From Vulcanimicrobium alpinum (lineage in GTDB: Bacteria > Vulcanimicrobiota > Vulcanimicrobiia > Vulcanimicrobiales > Vulcanimicrobiaceae), in contig NZ_AP025523.1 in assembly GCF_027923555.1 (NCBI RefSeq), positions 3,290,484 through 3,354,483 of the forward strand: a DNA stretch of 64,000 nt, written 5' to 3'. The first letter of the stretch is position 1. The number at the start of each line of letters is the position of its first letter. A program made the translations under genes and the position numbers. Of this stretch, positions 5,573-41,530 are shown in pieces. Under the pieces are notes generated by a model that ran no database searches, was not told where the DNA came from, and saw only the letters and a list, made by a program, of their open reading frames with translations.

Positions 5573-6385
5573 TTATCCGGCGGACCTGGGTCGGTTCGCC
5601 GGCGCGGACGGCTTCTGCATGATGCCGGCGACACGCCGCGTCAGCCAGCGGGGGCTGATCCGCGCGGACTGCGCGAGCAGCGTGTTCGCGATCCCGTCGA
5701 CGATGACCACGCGCCCGCGGTCCAGGGCGCGCAGCGCGGTGCGCACGACCTGTTCGGGCGAGCGCGCGCGGCCGAGGCGCGCGTCGTCGATCCCGGTGAA
5801 GAACGGCGTCTCGGTCTGCCCAGGGCACAGCGCCAGCACGCGCACGCCGCTTCCGCGCACCTCTTCCGCGAGCGCCTCCGAAAACGAGAGCAGAAACGCT
5901 TTGGTCGCGCCGTAGGTCGCCATGTACGGGACCGGCTGGAACGCGGCGTTGGACGCGACGTTGACGATCGCGCCCGCGCGGCGCGCGAGCATCGCCGGCA
6001 GCAAGGCGCGCGTGAGCTGCTGCGGCGCGAGGACGTTGACCATGACCTCGTCGCGTTCGCGCTCGGGCGCAAGCGTCACGAGTTCGCCGTACGTCGCGAA
6101 GCCGGCGTTGTTGACGAGCGTCCCGATCTCGATCCCGCGCGCGGCCAGTTCGTCGAGGATCGCGTGCGGTGCCGCCTGATCGGCGAGATCGGCCGGGATG
6201 ACGTCGACCGTGACCCCATGTGCCGCGCGGAGCTCGGTCGCGAGCGCCTCGAGGGCAGGAACCGTGCGCGCGACCAGGACCAGATCGAGCCCGCGGGCGG
6301 CGAGCGCCCGTGCGAACGCGGCGCCGATCCCGGACGAGGCACCGGTGACGAGGGCGCGCCGGGCGCCGGAGGCTGCAGCGGTCAT
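5573..6385 (-). CDS. Short-chain dehydrogenase/reductase
   Basis: A 270-residue classical-like SDR. The cofactor loop TGASSGIG is at residues 14-21, NNAG at 92-95, the catalytic Ser145 in NVASNAA, and Tyr158/Lys162 in YGATK. An Arg after strand 2 (VLVART) suggests NADP(H) preference. Substrate unknown; the sequence resembles the short-chain reductases annotated as acting on lipids or ketones. It is transcribed away from the TetR regulator at 6474, and the 88 bp between them hold overlapping promoters and inverted repeats, so it is probably controlled by that regulator. The ATG at 6385 lies only six bases beyond the predicted -10 hexamer, hence a likely leaderless mRNA. Confidence 0.88.
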   Translation of the reverse strand: MTAAASGARRALVTGASSGIGAAFARALAARGLDLVLVARTVPALEALATELRAAHGVTVDVIPADLADQAAPHAILDELAARGIEIGTLVNNAGFATYGELVTLAPERERDEVMVNVLAPQQLTRALLPAMLARRAGAIVNVASNAAFQPVPYMATYGATKAFLLSFSEALAEEVRGSGVRVLALCPGQTETPFFTGIDDARLGRARSPEQVVRTALRALDRGRVVIVDGIANTLLAQSARISPRWLTRRVAGIMQKPSAPANRPRSAG

Positions 6386-6391
6386 GCGATC

Positions 6392-6467
6392 ATCTTACTG
6401 AACATTGTTTATTTTTGTCAACTATGTTCATAAATCGGTTGACTTTCAGTCGAGGCGGGCGTAGGAT
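6392..6467. promoter_or_regulatory. Overlapping divergent promoters with interleaved inverted repeats
   Basis: Plus direction: TTGACT (6439-6444), 17-bp spacer, TAGGAT (6462-6467), with the TetR ATG at 6474. Minus direction: TTGACA (on plus 6416-6421), 18-bp spacer, TAAGAT (on plus 6392-6397), with the SDR ATG at 6385. Both starts fall six bases beyond the -10, so both messages would be leaderless. Two inverted repeats overlay the hexamers: TGAACAT (6399-6405) with ATGTTCA (6424-6430), and GTCAAC (6417-6422) with GTTGAC (6438-6443). The AT-rich block stands out from the surrounding G+C. These are candidate operators for the adjacent TetR protein. Confidence 0.75.
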
Positions 6468-6473
6468 CGCGCC

Positions 6474-7124
6474 ATGGGCATCGCCGAGCGGAAGGAGCGG
6501 CAACGGGCGGAGCTGCGCGAGCAGATCCTCGCCGCGGCGCGCAAGATCGTGCTCGACGAGGGCTACGAACAGCTGACGATGCGCAAGATCGCCGACGCGA
6601 TCGAGTACTCGCCGGCCGCCATCTACCTGTACTTCGAGAATCGCGAGGCGATCGGCCGCCAATTGTGCGCGGAGTCGTTCGAGCATCTGATCGCGTACAT
6701 GGCGCCGGTCTCGGCGATCGCCGATCCGTTCGAACGCCTGCTTTCGATGGGACGCTGCTACGCGCGCTTCGGCCTCGAGAACCCGCGCGAGTACCGGCTC
6801 CTGTTCATGACCGACGCGGCGTACATGCAGGCGCTCTTCCCACCGGACCATCAGAAGGACGACCACCCCGGCGAGCGCGCCTTTCAGTTCGTCGTCGATA
6901 TCGTCACGTCGGCTCGGGACGCCGGCGCGATCGAGGCCGCCGATCCGATCGCCGTCGCGGAGATGCTGTGGACCGCCGTGCACGGCATCGTCTCGCTCGC
7001 GCTTACCTGCTCCGAGGCGATCGAAACCCCGCTCGAGACGCTCGTGGAGACGATGTGCGCGACGATCGGCCGCGGCCTCGCCACCCCGGCCGCCCGCGCC
7101 GCACACGTCGTCCCCGCCCGCTAG
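6474..7124 (+). CDS. TetR/AcrR-family transcriptional regulator of the RND operon
   Basis: A 216-residue regulator. The N-terminal helix-turn-helix is clear (about residues 20-65): ILAAARKIVLDEGYEQLTMR, then KIADAIEYSPAAIYLYFENR. The C-terminal half, with FERLLSMGRCYARFGLENPR and an Ala-rich helix near AEMLWTAVHGIVSLAL, fits the WHG-type ligand-binding domain. TetR proteins repress and are released by small ligands. The gene heads a plus-strand series: it is followed after 54 bp by the membrane fusion protein and pump genes, and faces the SDR gene. It most likely represses itself, the pump and the SDR from the shared region 6386-6473. Confidence 0.9.
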   Translation: MGIAERKERQRAELREQILAAARKIVLDEGYEQLTMRKIADAIEYSPAAIYLYFENREAIGRQLCAESFEHLIAYMAPVSAIADPFERLLSMGRCYARFGLENPREYRLLFMTDAAYMQALFPPDHQKDDHPGERAFQFVVDIVTSARDAGAIEAADPIAVAEMLWTAVHGIVSLALTCSEAIETPLETLVETMCATIGRGLATPAARAAHVVPAR

Positions 7125-36011: not shown

Positions 36012-37421
36012 TCAGCGCGTCAGCGTCGAGAGTCTCAACACGGTGCGGGCGCGCGCGCCGAGGGTGTCCACGGCAAGAACCAGCACGATCGCCACCAGCA
36101 CGTAGGTGAGCAGCGGACGGTAGAACATCAGCTGCTGCGACTCGAAGATTGCTTGCCCCAAACCGCCGGCGCCGATCATGCCGAGCACCGTCGACGCGCG
36201 GACGTTCCACTCGAAACGGTACAGCGCGTGCGTCAGCATCGCCGGCAGCGCGCTGGGGATCAGCGCGACGCCGATCGCGCTTGCGGCGGTTGCACCGGTC
36301 GCCGCCAGCGCGATCGCCGGACCGCGCTCGGCGACCTCCAAACTTTCGGCGAGCAGCTTTCCGAGGACTCCGGCGGTGTGGATCGCGAGCGCGAAGATCC
36401 CCGCTTTCGGGCCTAAGCCGACGAAGGTCAATCCGATCAGGCCCAGCGCGATCGGCGGCGTCGCGCGCGCAACGGCGAGCGTGCCGCGGGCGGGGATCTC
36501 CGGGAGCCACGACCACGGGCGCCAGCCGGTCCCGCGCATCCAGCCGCGTGCGACCGGCGTCGCGCTCGCCAGCGCGAACGGCATCGCCAGGAGGACGCCG
36601 AGCGCGGTGCCGGCCAGCGCGACGCCGATGCTCACGAGCACGCCGTTCGCCGCCCGCACGAGCACTCCGCCCGAGAGATCCGGCGGCAGCGCACCGGCGG
36701 CGAACGCGGCGAGATGCGCGGGCGCGCCGGCGACCACGTTCCATTGGAACGCGTCGCCGTACATCAGCGAAACCGCCGCAACCGCGACGATTGCGGCGAA
36801 CGCGGGCACGATCGCTCGCGGCGAGACGCCGGCGCGCAGCCGCGTCGAGAGCGCATCGACGCCGACGACGAGTCCGACCAGCGCGAGCAAGAGCAGCGAA
36901 AACGTCCGGTAATCCGCTAAGTTGAGCGCCTGGATGAGATCGGAGCCGAGGCCGCCCGCGCCGACGACGCCGACGATCACCGCGGCGCGTACGATGCTCT
37001 CGAACGCGTAGGCGCCGAAGCCGACCAGACCCGGCCAAGCCGGAGGAACCAGCGCCACCAAATACGCCGCCGCCGACGTCGCGCCGGTCGCGCGCAGCGC
37101 TTCCGCCGGTTCCCGGCGCACCGAGTGCAGCAATTCGGCGGTCAGCTTCGCGACCACCGCCGCATAGTGCGCGCCGAGCGCGACGATCCCGGCGAGCGGT
37201 CCCAATCCCACCGCGACGACCGCCACGATCGCCAGCACGAGTTCCGGGATCGCGCGCACCACCGCGACGAACGCGGAAAGCCCGCGCGCAAGCCGGTCCT
37301 CGCGCGCGATCAAAATGCCGAGCGGCAAGCCCGCGAGCAACGCGACCAGAAACGAGACGCAGGTGATCCCGATCGTCTGCAGCACCGCATCGCGCACGTA
37401 CGCGAACGCGGCGGCGCTCAC
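36012..37421 (-). CDS. ABC permease with two fused PhnE-like domains
   Basis: A 469-residue inner-membrane permease containing two binding-protein-dependent transport domains in one chain. Each has the EAA-type loop: EALRATGATSAAAYLVALVP in the first (around residue 130) and AIALAATGATAASAIGVALI in the second (around 390). It matches the PhnE family. A fused permease makes a self-contained channel. It starts at a GTG overlapping the ATPase stop and is the last gene of the sulfite reductase operon; the cargo could therefore be a sulfur compound rather than a phosphonate. Confidence 0.86.
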   Translation of the reverse strand: MSAAAFAYVRDAVLQTIGITCVSFLVALLAGLPLGILIAREDRLARGLSAFVAVVRAIPELVLAIVAVVAVGLGPLAGIVALGAHYAAVVAKLTAELLHSVRREPAEALRATGATSAAAYLVALVPPAWPGLVGFGAYAFESIVRAAVIVGVVGAGGLGSDLIQALNLADYRTFSLLLLALVGLVVGVDALSTRLRAGVSPRAIVPAFAAIVAVAAVSLMYGDAFQWNVVAGAPAHLAAFAAGALPPDLSGGVLVRAANGVLVSIGVALAGTALGVLLAMPFALASATPVARGWMRGTGWRPWSWLPEIPARGTLAVARATPPIALGLIGLTFVGLGPKAGIFALAIHTAGVLGKLLAESLEVAERGPAIALAATGATAASAIGVALIPSALPAMLTHALYRFEWNVRASTVLGMIGAGGLGQAIFESQQLMFYRPLLTYVLVAIVLVLAVDTLGARARTVLRLSTLTR

Positions 37422-38119
37422 GCGGCCCCCGCCACCGCGTCGCGGACGATTCGCCCGGCTTCGAGCGTGATGACGCGGTCGAAGCTGCGTGCGAGTTCGG
37501 GCTGGTGCAGCGTGCACACCAGGGCGGCGCCGCGCTCGCGCGCGTCGGCCGTCAGCAGGTCGACGATCTCGCGCGCGAGCGACGGATCGAGCGATGCTGC
37601 CGGCTCGTCAGCAAGGACGAGTTCGGCGCGCGCCGCGATCGCGCGCGCGACGGCGATGCGCTGGCGCTGGCCTCCGGAGAGGTGATAAGCGCGTTCGCGC
37701 ACCCGGTCGCCGAGACCGACCCGTGCGAGCGCATCGTGCGCGAGCCGGCGCTCGAGCGCGCTCGGACGCAACACCGAACGTATCGCGCCGAGCGTCGTGC
37801 GCCGCCCGAACGTTCCGGCGAGCACGTTCGCCTCGACCGAGAGCTCGTCGATGAGCTCGTGCGCCTGAAACACGACGCCGATCCGCGCGCGCACCTGCCG
37901 CAGTGCCGCACCGTGCACGCCGCGCAGATCGACGCCCCCGACGCGAACCGTCCCTTCATCGGGATCGAAGGCGCCGTACGCGAGCCGGAAGAGCGTCGTC
38001 TTCCCCGCACCGCTCTGCCCGAGGAGCGCGACGCATTCGCCCGCGCGTACCGAGAATGTGCAGCCGTCGAGGACGACGCGCTCGCCGAACGCGTGGCGCA
38101 CGTTCTCGTAGGAGAGCAC
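37418..38119 (-). CDS. ABC transporter ATP-binding protein (PhnC-like)
   Basis: A 233-residue ATPase: Walker A GQSGAGKTTLFRLAYG, Q-loop VVFQAHELIDELS, signature LSGGQRQRIAVARAI, Walker B AELVLADEPAASLDP and the switch His in LHQPE. The order and the FQ.H.LI.E.S segment fit PhnC. It powers the fused permease encoded next. The GTG start at 38117-38119 shares a base with the TAG of the binding-protein gene (TAGTG), so translation is coupled. Confidence 0.9.
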   Translation of the reverse strand: MLSYENVRHAFGERVVLDGCTFSVRAGECVALLGQSGAGKTTLFRLAYGAFDPDEGTVRVGGVDLRGVHGAALRQVRARIGVVFQAHELIDELSVEANVLAGTFGRRTTLGAIRSVLRPSALERRLAHDALARVGLGDRVRERAYHLSGGQRQRIAVARAIAARAELVLADEPAASLDPSLAREIVDLLTADARERGAALVCTLHQPELARSFDRVITLEAGRIVRDAVAGAA

Positions 38120-38961
38120 TACAACAGGCCGAGGCGCTTCGCGACGACGCGGTCGGCGTCGTATTCCTTGTCGTTGGCGGCGACGAAGCCGGTCGCTCGC
38201 ACGACCGCGAGCACTTTGGGATCTTTCAGGTCGAGGAATGCGCGCGTCACCGCGTCGACGGTCGCCGCGTCGAGGTCTTTGCGCGCCGCCCACACGTAGT
38301 CGATGAACTCGTGGCTGGTGACGAACACGCGCGCCTTGGCGGGATCGATCGTCTTGTCGTCGACGAGCTTGCGGTAGACGGTCTCGTCGAGCGCTCCGGC
38401 GGCGACCTGCCCGGACGCCACGGCGATCGCGGTGTTGGTGTGGTTTCCGGAGAAGCGCGCGGTGAGATCTTTGTCGGGATCGATGCCGGCCGCGATCAGC
38501 TCCTGCGCGGGGATCAAGTGGCCCGAGGTCGAGTTGACGTCGCCGAACGCGAACGTCTTGCCCTTGAGATCCTTGAGCGTCGCGATCTTCGGATCGCCGG
38601 TGATGAACAGCGAGTGGAAGTGCCGGTCCTCGTTGCGCTGCACGAGCGGCTTGGCGCCGTAGCGCGCCTGCGCTTTGAGATAGGTGAGCGCGCCGAAGTT
38701 GGCGACGTCGAGCGAGCCGTTCCCGAGCGCTTCGACGGTCGCCGCGTAGTTCGTGGGGATGATCAGCTTGACGTTGCGTTTGAGCCGCTGCTGCAGGTAG
38801 TCGACCCACGGCTGTTTCGCCGCGATCGACTCCGGCGTCGTCGCGACTTCGGGGATGAATCCGATGCGCAGGTCTTCGGCCGCCATGGCGCGGCGCCCGA
38901 GCGCGACCGTGAGCGCTGCGGCGCCGCCGGCGGAGAGGAACGAACGGCGAGATGCGGTCAC
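38119..38961 (-). CDS. Periplasmic substrate-binding protein (PhnD/PtxB-like), Tat signal
   Basis: A 280-residue binding protein. The N-terminus SRRSFLSAGGAAALTVALG is a twin-arginine signal. The mature part follows the phosphate/phosphite/phosphonate-binding family: LRIGFIPEVATTPESIAAKQ, ANFGALTYLKAQARYGAKPL, GKTFAFGDVNSTSGHLIPAQ (the anion-contact loop) and SHEFIDYVWAARKDLDAATV. Members bind tetrahedral oxyanions. Because it is coupled by GTGA to sulfite reductase, the ligand may be a sulfonate, sulfite or sulfate-like anion; that is inference. The GTG start is at 38961. Confidence 0.88.
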   Translation of the reverse strand: MTASRRSFLSAGGAAALTVALGRRAMAAEDLRIGFIPEVATTPESIAAKQPWVDYLQQRLKRNVKLIIPTNYAATVEALGNGSLDVANFGALTYLKAQARYGAKPLVQRNEDRHFHSLFITGDPKIATLKDLKGKTFAFGDVNSTSGHLIPAQELIAAGIDPDKDLTARFSGNHTNTAIAVASGQVAAGALDETVYRKLVDDKTIDPAKARVFVTSHEFIDYVWAARKDLDAATVDAVTRAFLDLKDPKVLAVVRATGFVAANDKEYDADRVVAKRLGLL

Positions 38962-40619
38962 AAAACTACCTCAGCGAGAACGTCGCGCGCCGCCCAGTCC
39001 CCGAACGATTCGCCCACACGGCGATCGTTGCGGAACGCGACGAACAGGGGTGCCAGAAGCGGCGCGATCTCCCACGATCGCACTTTCTCTCGCCAGGGTT
39101 TCGCCAAGCGCGTCGAGGCCGGGCTCCCCCCGAGATAGAGCTGGTAGCGATCGGCGCTCTGGCCGACGATCCCGATCTCCGCCATGTACGGCCGGGTGCA
39201 GCCGTTGGGGCAGCCGGTCATGCGGATCGCGATCGTCTCGCCCGGAAGTCCCGCCGCCGCGAGTTCCGCTTCGATTGCGGCGAGGATCGCGGGGAGCGCC
39301 CGCTCCGACTCGGCCAGGGCGAGGCCGCAGGTCGGCAGCGCCGGGCATGCCAGCGCTCGGGTGCGCAGCGCCGGCACCGAGAGCGGCGGCTCGACGCCGT
39401 GCTCCTGCAGCAGCGCGTCGATCGTCTCGCGCTCGCCGGCCGGGACGTCGACGACGAGCACTTGCTGTCCGGGCGTCGCGACCAAATCGTAGCCGCGATC
39501 GGCGATCGCGCGCAGCGCCGACTTCAACCGGCGTTCACCCTCGTCTTTGATCCGTCCGCTCGCGACGTACAGGCCGAGAAACCAGCCGCCCTCGCCTTGC
39601 GCGTGCCAGCCGAACTTCGCCGGATCGTCCCACGCGGGGAGTTCGCGCCACGGCTGCAGCGCGAACCCCGCTTCGCGCTCGACCTCGGAGCGAAACCAGC
39701 CCAGCCCGCGATCGGCGATGAGATACTTGAGCCGTGCGTGCTTGCGATCGGTGCGGTCGCCGTAGTCGCGCTGCACGACGACGATCGCGCGCACCGCGTC
39801 GAGCAGACGCTCCGGCGCCACCAATCCGAGATGATCGGCGAGCCGCGGAAACGTCGTCGTCTTGCCGTGCGTCATCCCGAGGCCGCCGCCGGCGGCGAGG
39901 TTGTACGCGACGAGCGTACCGTCGTCGGCGAAGACCGGAACGACGCCGACGTCGTTGGTGTACAGGTCGACGCTGTTGTCGCCGGGGACGGTGACGGCGA
40001 TCTTGAACTTGCGCGGCAGGTACGTTGCGCCGTAGATCGGCTCGTCCTCGCCGCCCGCCTCGTGCACGGCTTGGCCGTCCTGCCAGATCTCGAGATATGC
40101 GCCGGTGCGCGGCGCGAACTCCGCAGAGATCGCCGCCGCCGCGTCGCGCGCGGCGGCGTAGGCGGGATGCGCGTACGGCCAGGCCGGCGCGACGACGTTG
40201 CGCACGACGTCGCCGCACGTCGCGAGCGTCGAGCCGAGGTTTGCGACGATGTCGGCGATGACCGGCTTGAGGTCGGGTTTGCGCACGCCGTGTAGCTGCA
40301 GACCTTGGCGAGTGGTCACGCGGATCGTCCCGTTGCCGTGCCGTTCGGCGAGGTCGTCGACCGCGCTCCACAGCGGTGCCGGCACGCGGCCGCCGGTCGC
40401 TTTCACGCGCACCATGAACGACCACGGTTTCTCAGCGCCCCCGTCGCGCGCGGCTTTGCGCTCGTCGCGATCCTCTTGCTGGTACGTGCCGTGAAACTTC
40501 AGCAGCGCGGCGGATTCGTCGCTGACGCGCGCGGAGGCGGGATCGTCGAGCTCCGGCGCGATGCTGCCGCGCAAGCCGCGGCTCTGCGCCTTGAGCGCTT
40601 CGACGTTGACCTTGCTCAC
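38958..40619 (-). CDS. sir: Assimilatory sulfite reductase (siroheme/4Fe-4S hemoprotein)
   Basis: A 553-residue one-chain sulfite/nitrite reductase that reduces sulfite to sulfide, probably with ferredoxin. The cluster and siroheme ligands are present as C-x5-C (Cys425 and Cys431 in ACPALPTCGLA) and C-x3-C (Cys470 and Cys474 in GCPNGCTRP). Other signatures are TIRVTTRQGLQLHGVRK and YNLAAGGGLGMTHGK. The sequence fits sulfite rather than nitrite reductase, and the cysteine leader peptide upstream agrees. It starts at GTG 40619, shortly after a hairpin terminator, and its stop overlaps the binding-protein start. The four genes form one operon. Confidence 0.9.
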   Translation of the reverse strand: MSKVNVEALKAQSRGLRGSIAPELDDPASARVSDESAALLKFHGTYQQEDRDERKAARDGGAEKPWSFMVRVKATGGRVPAPLWSAVDDLAERHGNGTIRVTTRQGLQLHGVRKPDLKPVIADIVANLGSTLATCGDVVRNVVAPAWPYAHPAYAAARDAAAAISAEFAPRTGAYLEIWQDGQAVHEAGGEDEPIYGATYLPRKFKIAVTVPGDNSVDLYTNDVGVVPVFADDGTLVAYNLAAGGGLGMTHGKTTTFPRLADHLGLVAPERLLDAVRAIVVVQRDYGDRTDRKHARLKYLIADRGLGWFRSEVEREAGFALQPWRELPAWDDPAKFGWHAQGEGGWFLGLYVASGRIKDEGERRLKSALRAIADRGYDLVATPGQQVLVVDVPAGERETIDALLQEHGVEPPLSVPALRTRALACPALPTCGLALAESERALPAILAAIEAELAAAGLPGETIAIRMTGCPNGCTRPYMAEIGIVGQSADRYQLYLGGSPASTRLAKPWREKVRSWEIAPLLAPLFVAFRNDRRVGESFGDWAARDVLAEVVL

Positions 40620-40636
40620 GAGAAGGGTGCTCCCGG

Positions 40637-40671
40637 AAAAAGAAAAGAGCCCCGCCGGTCGGCGGAGGCTC
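40637..40671 (-). terminator. Attenuator terminator upstream of sulfite reductase
   Basis: Read on the minus strand, GAGCC..GGCTC (40647-40671) folds into a ten-pair stem with one bulged base and a four-base loop, followed by TTTTCTTTTT (40646-40637). It lies between the leader peptide stop (40700) and the sulfite reductase start (40619), so it acts inside the operon leader, not at its end. An eight-base segment of the leader (CGGTCGGC, plus 40710-40717) is complementary to the terminator's inner arm and loop (plus 40656-40663), giving a possible antiterminator. Confidence 0.85.
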
Positions 40672-40699
40672 TCGGAGACTTGCGGACCGTGCCGTTATC

Positions 40700-40768
40700 T
40701 CACGATGAAGCCGACCGCCGAGCGACGCTCGCGGGACAGGCCATCAGGAGACAGCAGCAGAGAAGCAT
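40700..40768 (-). CDS. Polycysteine leader peptide
   Basis: A 22-codon frame starts at ATG 40768 and reads MLLCCCLLMACP before an Arg/Ser end, stopping at 40700. Three adjacent Cys codons (TGC TGC TGT) at positions 4-6 and a fourth at 11 are far beyond chance. It begins nine bases after a good -10 hexamer, so it is translated from a nearly leaderless transcript. A ribosome that stalls at the Cys codons when charged Cys-tRNA is scarce would change the folding of the terminator downstream. Polycysteine leaderless short frames are known in mycobacteria as cysteine-responsive attenuators. Confidence 0.82.
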   Translation of the reverse strand: MLLCCCLLMACPASVARRSASS

Positions 40769-40777
40769 GTGGGCCGG

Positions 40778-40807
40778 ACGATACCACGACCGCAGGCGAA
40801 GCGTCAA
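40778..40807 (-). promoter_or_regulatory. Promoter of the cysteine leader / sulfite reductase operon
   Basis: On the minus strand TTGACG (40807-40802), an 18-bp spacer and TATCGT (40783-40778) precede the leader ATG (40768) by nine bases. The -35 is just beyond the livF stop at 40820. Confidence 0.75.
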
Positions 40808-40819
40808 CCCGGCGGTGCG

Positions 40820-41530
40820 TCACACGCCGAGATAGCGATCGTGCAGTGCGGGGTCGTCGGCAAGCGCGAGCGTCGCGCCGGTCCATGCGACGCGACCTTT
40901 CTCGATCACGATGGCGCGCGGCGCGACGCCGGCGAGTGCGTGCAGATATTTGTCGACGACGAGCACCGCGAGCCCCCGCGCGCGCAAACCGCGCAGCGCC
41001 GCCCAAATCTCCTCGCGCACCACCGGCGCGAGCCCCTCGGTTGCCTCGTCGAGGACGAGCAGACGCGGACCGAGCAGCAGCGCGCGCGCGATCGCGAGCA
41101 TCTGCTGTTCGCCGCCCGAGAGCCGGCTGCCGAGCTGGCGCATGCGATCGCCGAGCCGCGGAAACAGCGTCGTCACGTCGGCCAGATTCCACGGATGCGC
41201 GAGGACGCCGTAGTTCGCGGCGGTCGCGAGCAGATTCTCGCGCACGGTGAGTTCCGCGAAGATCCGCCTGCCTTCAGGGACGAGCCCGACGCCGAGCCGC
41301 GCGATGCGGTGCGGCGCGGCGCGCGTGACGTCGCGCCCTGCGACGCGCACCGTGCCGCGCGTCGCGCGGCACAAGCCGAGGATCGTGCGGATCGTCGTCG
41401 TCTTGCCCATCCCGTTGCGGCCGACGAGCGCAACGCCTTCACCCTCGCCGACCTGCAGCGAGAGCCCTTCGATCACGCGCGTGCGGCCGTATCCCGCGTC
41501 GACCGCATCGACGTCGACGAACGCGCTCAC
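40820..41530 (-). CDS. livF: Branched-chain-type ABC transporter ATPase LivF
   Basis: A 236-residue ATPase with Walker A GRNGMGKTTTIRTILGL, signature LSGGEQQMLAIARALLL and Walker B PRLLVLDEATEGLAP; the phrase LVPEGRRIFAELTVRENLLA is typical of LivF. The switch His position is unusual: VVDKYLHALAGVAPRA has Lys-Tyr-Leu-His rather than EQN-type residues. It is the last gene of livKHMGF and starts at a GTG overlapping the livG stop. Being divergent from the aromatic-CoA operon, the system probably imports an aromatic acid rather than leucine. Confidence 0.92.
   Translation of the reverse strand: MSAFVDVDAVDAGYGRTRVIEGLSLQVGEGEGVALVGRNGMGKTTTIRTILGLCRATRGTVRVAGRDVTRAAPHRIARLGVGLVPEGRRIFAELTVRENLLATAANYGVLAHPWNLADVTTLFPRLGDRMRQLGSRLSGGEQQMLAIARALLLGPRLLVLDEATEGLAPVVREEIWAALRGLRARGLAVLVVDKYLHALAGVAPRAIVIEKGRVAWTGATLALADDPALHDRYLGV

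Follow-up and report, generated by a model that had tools for sequence, protein, structure and literature searches.

A putative leaderless cysteine attenuator in front of the sulfite reductase gene of Vulcanimicrobium alpinum and its counterparts in one family of Eremiobacterota

In the trp and his attenuators of Escherichia coli, the leader RNA is able to form 1:2, 2:3 and 3:4 pairings, and a ribosome standing at the stop codon of the leader peptide covers region 2. Attenuators of this type carry a 5′ untranslated leader with a Shine-Dalgarno sequence. The leader described here, located in front of the assimilatory sulfite reductase gene of Vulcanimicrobium alpinum, appears to follow the same pairing logic, however apparently without a 5′ untranslated leader or a Shine-Dalgarno sequence.

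For some attenuators and leader peptides, such an arrangement has been reported. In the transcription attenuator trpL from Sinorhizobium meliloti, the ATG of the leader frame forms the 5′ end of the transcript (PMC7298713), but this system senses tryptophan and its sequence is unrelated to that of the V. alpinum leader. Leader peptides that are leaderless and contain amino-acid-specific codons have been described for Streptomyces lividans, and some of these (trpL1, leuL2, ilvL) are followed by Rho-independent terminators (PMC8079986). Here, the peptide MetL (MSTTSDRTPATEATTTPGARCMCRRMCAF) precedes metNIQ, encoding a methionine importer, and contains Met as well as Cys codons, while the presence of a terminator is unclear (PMC8079986). 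No Cys-type leader is listed in this set (PMC8079986) and, unlike it, the leaders of homoserine dehydrogenase (hom) and homocysteine synthase (metY) genes presented below combine Met and Cys codons with terminators.

For cysteine, leader peptides have been predicted in Mycobacterium, Propionibacterium and Bifidobacterium, all of them without terminators (PMC1262725; Seliverstov et al., 2005). The polycysteine leaderless short ORFs of mycobacteria (Canestrari et al., 2020) are described as translational attenuators (as cited in PMC13236596). The leader of V. alpinum shares with these short ORFs the consecutive Cys codons in a short frame in front of cysteine or sulfur genes and, as predicted here, the leaderless start. 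In contrast to the mycobacterial leaders, which lack a recognisable terminator (PMC1262725), it is found in another phylum and possesses an intrinsic terminator with a co-adapted antiterminator. The uORFC-8-2 motif in front of cysS in Rhodobacterales is predicted to be an attenuator and combines an intrinsic terminator with Cys codons in tandem (PMC8632094). Both systems have in common the prediction of ribosome-mediated attenuation, the Cys codons and the intrinsic terminator; unlike the alphaproteobacterial cysS motif, the leaders reported here belong to sulfate assimilation and homocysteine synthesis in Eremiobacterota, and their ATG lies at the predicted 5′ end.

V. alpinum WC8-2 is the first cultivated member of the Eremiobacterota and has a single chromosome of 3,508,363 bases (PMC9758169). 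The window, that is the whole stretch of 64 kb analysed here, carries the leader device on the minus strand, between an ABC transporter operon, whose last gene ends at 40820, and the assimilatory sulfite reductase gene (Table 1). The original prediction had described a frame of 22 codons located nine bases from a -10 box; this frame is indeed present, and the strand, which had not been given, is now added. Its promoter has the layout TTGACG-18-TATCGT (40807-40778) and is one of two sigma-70-like sites within 10 kb, where 0.4 were expected. Since the leader ATG at 40768 follows the -10 hexamer at a distance of 9 nt, the transcript is predicted to start at this ATG or within about 2 nt of it, which would make it apparently leaderless or nearly so.

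Table 1. Positions of the leader elements and of the downstream genes in the window.
Feature	Position	Strand	Basis or remark
-35 hexamer TTGACG	40802-40807	-	sequence; TTGAC kept in the leaders of relatives
-10 hexamer TATCGT, preceded by TGG (extended -10)	40778-40783	-	sequence; TAnnnT kept in the leaders of relatives
Leader frame MLLCCCLLMACPASVARRSASS, 22 codons and TGA (stop codon 40702-40700)	40700-40768	-	homologous frames in 5 genus relatives
Putative regulatory Cys codons 4-6 (TGC TGC TGT)	40751-40759	-	codon 6 TGT invariant in the genus
Putative regulatory Cys codon 11 (TGT)	40736-40738	-	invariant in the genus
Predicted antiterminator 5′ strand (region 2)	40697-40721	-	covers the last leader codons and the stop codon
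Predicted antiterminator 3′ strand (region 3)	40659-40679	-	takes in the terminator 5′ arm
Predicted intrinsic terminator hairpin GAGCCTCCGCCGACCGGCGGGGCTC, -19.0 kcal/mol	40647-40671	-	equivalent hairpin in 47/47 leaders
U-tract TTTTCTTTTT	40637-40646	-	directly after the terminator hairpin
Assimilatory sulfite reductase hemoprotein, GTG start at 40619	38958-40619	-	NF010029, 715 bits (cutoff 457)
PhnD-type periplasmic substrate-binding protein	38119-38961	-	TIGR01098 over cutoff; 4-nt overlap with the sulfite reductase stop codon
PhnC-type ABC ATPase	37418-38118	-	ATPase domain at residues 232-459 of ORF 37418-38809
PhnE-type permease	36012-37517	-	two BPD_transp_1 domains

Several features of a trp/his-type attenuator are found at this locus. 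The short frame in front of sulfite reductase contains Cys at codons 4, 5, 6 and 11; with a background of 1.25% Cys, at least four Cys among 21 residues would occur by chance with p ~1e-4. Between the frame and the first gene lies an intrinsic terminator (40671-40637), that is the U-tract terminator just before sulfite reductase which had been pointed out before. Furthermore, mutually exclusive antiterminator and protector pairings are indicated by the swap tests and masked folds described below. A scan of both strands of the 64 kb for a short frame with at least two Cys codons, a -10 element and a terminator returned a single place, the sulfite reductase leader. Rfam covariance models (T-box, SAM and other regulatory RNAs) gave no match in the window at gathering scores, and with relaxed thresholds two sub-threshold hits at chance level, neither of them credible, were obtained in the leader.

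Taken together, the leader is very probably a ribosome-mediated attenuator of transcription that responds to cysteine and whose leader peptide is leaderless. Here, start site, ribosome stalling, termination and the response to cysteine are deduced from sequence. The RNA would start no more than about 2 nt from the leader ATG, with a ribosome initiating on the 5′-terminal AUG. If Cys-tRNA is plentiful, the ribosome would reach the TGA and, since region 2 spans the last codons together with the stop codon, a ribosome terminating there would cover region 2, so that the terminator would form before sulfite reductase. A shortage of Cys-tRNA would stall the ribosome at Cys codons 4-6 or 11, leaving region 2 to pair with region 3 and allowing RNA polymerase to read into sulfite reductase and, probably, the importer encoded behind it. 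Without any ribosome, region 1, containing the Cys codons, would pair with region 2 and the terminator would form. The same design is proposed to act before CysH and, with Met and Cys codons, before MetY in V. alpinum.

The anatomy of the leader, its conservation, its regulon context and its co-adapted alternative pairings are direct observations on the genomes compared. Homologous leaders precede sulfite reductase in five relatives of the genus (MLLCCCLTMVCCPGPRSRWLLTS, MSRARCLMMVCPTGFRSRRSFTS, MSFTCCLSMMQCSTGLRTRRSATS, MSLFCCRMMVCPTGFLIRR and MLLARCLTMVCTHGSPVRRSVTS), with a terminator before the gene in all five, and the leader is thus conserved in every one of the six members of the genus in which it is readable. 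Of the Cys codons, Cys6 and Cys11 (each TGT) are the only ones kept in all five relatives. Therefore, the three consecutive Cys codons emphasised in the original prediction exist in the window (codons 4-6), but the run as such and its remaining codons are not conserved in the genus. The relatives were also compared for terminators retained despite a loss of the Cys codons, and no such case occurs upstream of the sulfite reductase genes of the genus.

This conservation bears on the simplest alternative, a chance constellation in a GC-rich intergenic region, in which the Cys-rich frame would be spurious and the terminator would belong to the preceding ABC operon. Terminator-like hairpins are indeed not rare (8 in 10 kb versus 5.0 expected) and this operon ends close upstream. 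However, a place of this kind is found only once in the window, and the maintenance of the leader in all six readable genus members and in further genera contradicts chance, which is scarcely conceivable as an explanation.

Two further loci are of separate interest. Upstream of sulfite reductase at locus L012 (genome G059), the promoter has been kept without a leader or a terminator, and the sequence jumps from TTAG to TTAGGAG, which is either a natural deletion with constitutive expression or an assembly artefact. At locus L023 (genome G045), which holds a second copy of sulfite reductase, an apparent truncated cysH remnant lies in front of this copy and is itself still preceded by a leader and a terminator.

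In genera of the family that are more distant, the leaders are built alike but encode unrelated peptides, for example MLARACCCPGCPPARSIGTG, MIYRCCRYACGTCAFAAHGRVVI and MIASICCPCRVWVAGVLPERADFG. Between genera the peptide sequences diverge strongly, whereas the Cys and Met codons, their spacing, the alternative pairings and the sulfur-gene context persist. This argues against the frame being a functional small protein or small RNA whose transcript is ended by the terminator, with sulfite reductase being expressed by leaky termination or from another promoter. Such a role would fit the frame having its own promoter and terminator, and some attenuator leaders act in trans as well, like rnTrpL/peTrpL from S. 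meliloti (PMC7298713). A simple scan from the leader to the gene, however, gave no further promoter-like site, and this explanation appears highly improbable, although an additional trans role of the leader peptide or RNA is possible alongside attenuation.

Cysteine attenuation would not be restricted to a single gene. The V. alpinum genome has at least three sulfur leaders, belonging to sulfite reductase, cysH and metY. A pattern search of this genome identified the second leader, MNRRSLAMMMCCCSPRGTV, on the minus strand with its start codon at G000:C1:2681768; the gene behind it encodes the homocysteine synthase MetY (NF006096, 736 bits, cutoff 726). The third leader, MISLAVRACASCLRIDPDTA, has its start codon near G000:C1:51129 and is followed by the terminator GGAAGCCTCGCCGAACGGCGGGGCTTTTTTTTG before cysH (NF002537). 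Taken by itself, the combination of -10, ATG and TGYTGY lacks specificity, as a reversed control gave about equal numbers of hits in the own genome and in the phylum; therefore, terminator and gene context are needed in addition.

In total, 47 comparable leaders from 34 genomes of one Eremiobacterota family were compiled, which precede sulfite reductase, cysH, metY, or hom followed by metY, with the gene identity checked on examples. Promoters are readable in 45 of them, with TTGAC in 42 and TAnnnT, located 6-10 nt before the start codon, in 44. All 47 have a terminator-like hairpin 16-42 nt past the stop codon (median 28) and, in the non-redundant set, Cys and Met account for 15.9% and 4.9% of the residues in the Cys-type leaders of sulfate-reduction genes and for 10.5% and 15.7% in the hom/metY leaders, against a background of 1.25% and 1.1% in sulfite reductase proteins; the Cys enrichment and the complete set of terminators are partly selected, since the search used in part Cys-rich frames with terminators. 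The pairing tests described below are free of this effect.

Among 75 sulfite reductase loci, mostly from other phyla, a single one has such a leader and it resides on an Eremiobacterota contig. For metY outside of the family, no leader was detected within the fetched flanks, although leaders may lie further upstream, and some metY loci inside the family likewise show none within their flanks. The second metY paralogue (59% identity) is without such a leader in the further regions examined and serves as a specificity control. We lean toward the view that the main sulfur operons of the family (sulfite reductase, CysH, hom/metY) are under a set of leaderless, ribosome-mediated transcription attenuators, where the codons would set the signal: Cys for sulfate reduction, and interleaved Met and Cys, reading both supplies, for homocysteine synthesis.

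The rationale of the swap test is that the antiterminator region 2 of a leader should fit its own terminator arm better than the arms of other genomes. Across 36 non-redundant leaders, the own pairing of region 2 with the terminator was 2.0 kcal/mol better than predicted from row and column means (z -5.1, p < 5e-5), and none of 20,000 permutations was as good. No comparable fit is seen for the control regions, namely the 5′ part of the frame (z 0.03), the promoter (z 1.4) and the gap after the stop codon. For this gap, pairing with the terminator arm of the same leader is even poorer than expected (z +3.0), which looks like an avoidance of competing pairings. Furthermore, the 1:2 protector pairing, in which the Cys-codon region binds region 2, shows co-adaptation (z -3.9, p 1e-4). 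Together with the terminators, these results support the presence of the three alternative pairings of a classical attenuator. The folds of the window leader confirm that, as proposed, one of its segments can pair with the terminator arm, and the swap tests indicate that the function of this pairing is conserved in the relatives.

Simple duplexes compared with dinucleotide shuffles gave a mean z of -1.3, with p < 0.05 in 15 of the 47 leaders. For the window leader alone this duplex test was not significant (z -0.8), and therefore full folds were also examined, in which it reached z -2.7. Here, stalled ribosomes were simulated by masking. Without a ribosome, the fold of the window leader contains a pairing between the Cys-codon and stop-codon regions together with the terminator, and with the ribosome at the stop codon the terminator alone remains (-19.2). 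A stall at Cys codon 5, 6 or 11 removes the terminator from the minimum-energy fold in favour of a long antiterminator (40721-40697 with 40679-40659), which takes the 5′ arm of the terminator. At codon 4, the outcome varies with the RNA cut point, and the terminator is kept in one analysis and lost in another; it was defined by its 18-nt core in the folds of all leaders and as the full 25-nt hairpin in the window folds, where it survives this stall. In 12 of the 47 leaders, a stall at one or more of the Cys codons eliminates the terminator from the minimum-free-energy fold, compared with 0.7 leaders expected on the basis of shuffled sequences, and a ribosome at the stop codon leaves the terminator in place in all 47. 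The mean z of -3.16 for the folds of all leaders is somewhat inflated, since the best-pairing stall position was picked before shuffling. The other 35 leaders do not switch at minimum free energy, and the model requires that in these the hairpin formed first is kinetically favoured.

These data also allow a translational mechanism to be weighed, similar to that of mycobacteria, in which a stall at the Cys codons would free a downstream Shine-Dalgarno sequence or start codon, while the hairpin would have no role in transcription. This is the mode reported for leaderless polycysteine frames before mycobacterial cysteine genes (Canestrari et al., 2020, as cited in PMC13236596). However, the conserved hairpin, placed between leader and first gene, has a T-rich tract at its end. 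In the window, it stops 28 nt short of the sulfite reductase start codon, which it does not include, and region 2 and the 5′ arm of the terminator show co-adaptation. Translational attenuation is therefore considered improbable. The idea put forward in the original prediction, a counterpart of the mycobacterial polycysteine leader that acts in the classical way by terminating transcription, is instead supported by the recurrent leaders and terminators, the co-adapted pairings and the simulated stalls.

Behind sulfite reductase, the attached importer which had been predicted holds up solely as a co-directional ABC cluster of PhnD/C/E type overlapping the sulfite reductase stop codon (Table 1). 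Within this cluster, the start of the mechanically called ORF for the PhnC-type ATPase was set too early. The binding protein of the importer (36012-38961) scores below the cutoff for the 'putative selenate' family TIGR04553, and a sulfur oxyanion is a possible substrate. The gene following sulfite reductase is cysH in several relatives of the genus, where it takes the place of the PhnD/PhnC/PhnE importer.

Leaderless frames might be used more widely. In the region of G000:C1:2602759 (L233, L261), an apparently leaderless short frame, MASRYAFPVFSLTVGICPPAGSSFA, and a GC-rich hairpin behind it precede a gene resembling branched-chain aminotransferases. The counterpart of this frame in genome G087 (L268), MASRSYVLPVSIVIVELRSPAGSSFA, is rich in Val, Ile and Leu, and leaderless attenuation may therefore extend to branched-chain amino acids. 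A divergent pair of promoter-like sites is located in the window at 6383-6476 (G000:C1:3296866-3296959), one for a short-chain dehydrogenase (minus strand) and one for a TetR-like regulator (plus strand), and in both cases the -10 element is followed by the start codon at a distance of 6-10 nt. This suggests leaderless mRNAs for full-length genes as well.

Each component of the proposed attenuator is already known separately, and the combination, the phylum and the leaders with both Met and Cys codons appear to be new. The combination, its use in sulfate assimilation and homocysteine synthesis, and its occurrence in this phylum were not found in the open-licence literature, a scope which makes this absence weak evidence.

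Ribosome-mediated transcription attenuation would thereby be extended to a phylum for which the searched literature contains no report. Here, a 5′-terminal AUG without a Shine-Dalgarno sequence is apparently coupled to an intrinsic terminator for cysteine and, if this is true, the ribosome would have to load on the first few nucleotides of the nascent RNA. The mixed leaders with Met and Cys codons would represent a two-amino-acid sensor. Since V. alpinum WC8-2 is in culture, the prediction is directly testable, and for these largely uncultured bacteria the leaders would provide a codon-based rule for predicting the regulation of sulfur metabolism.
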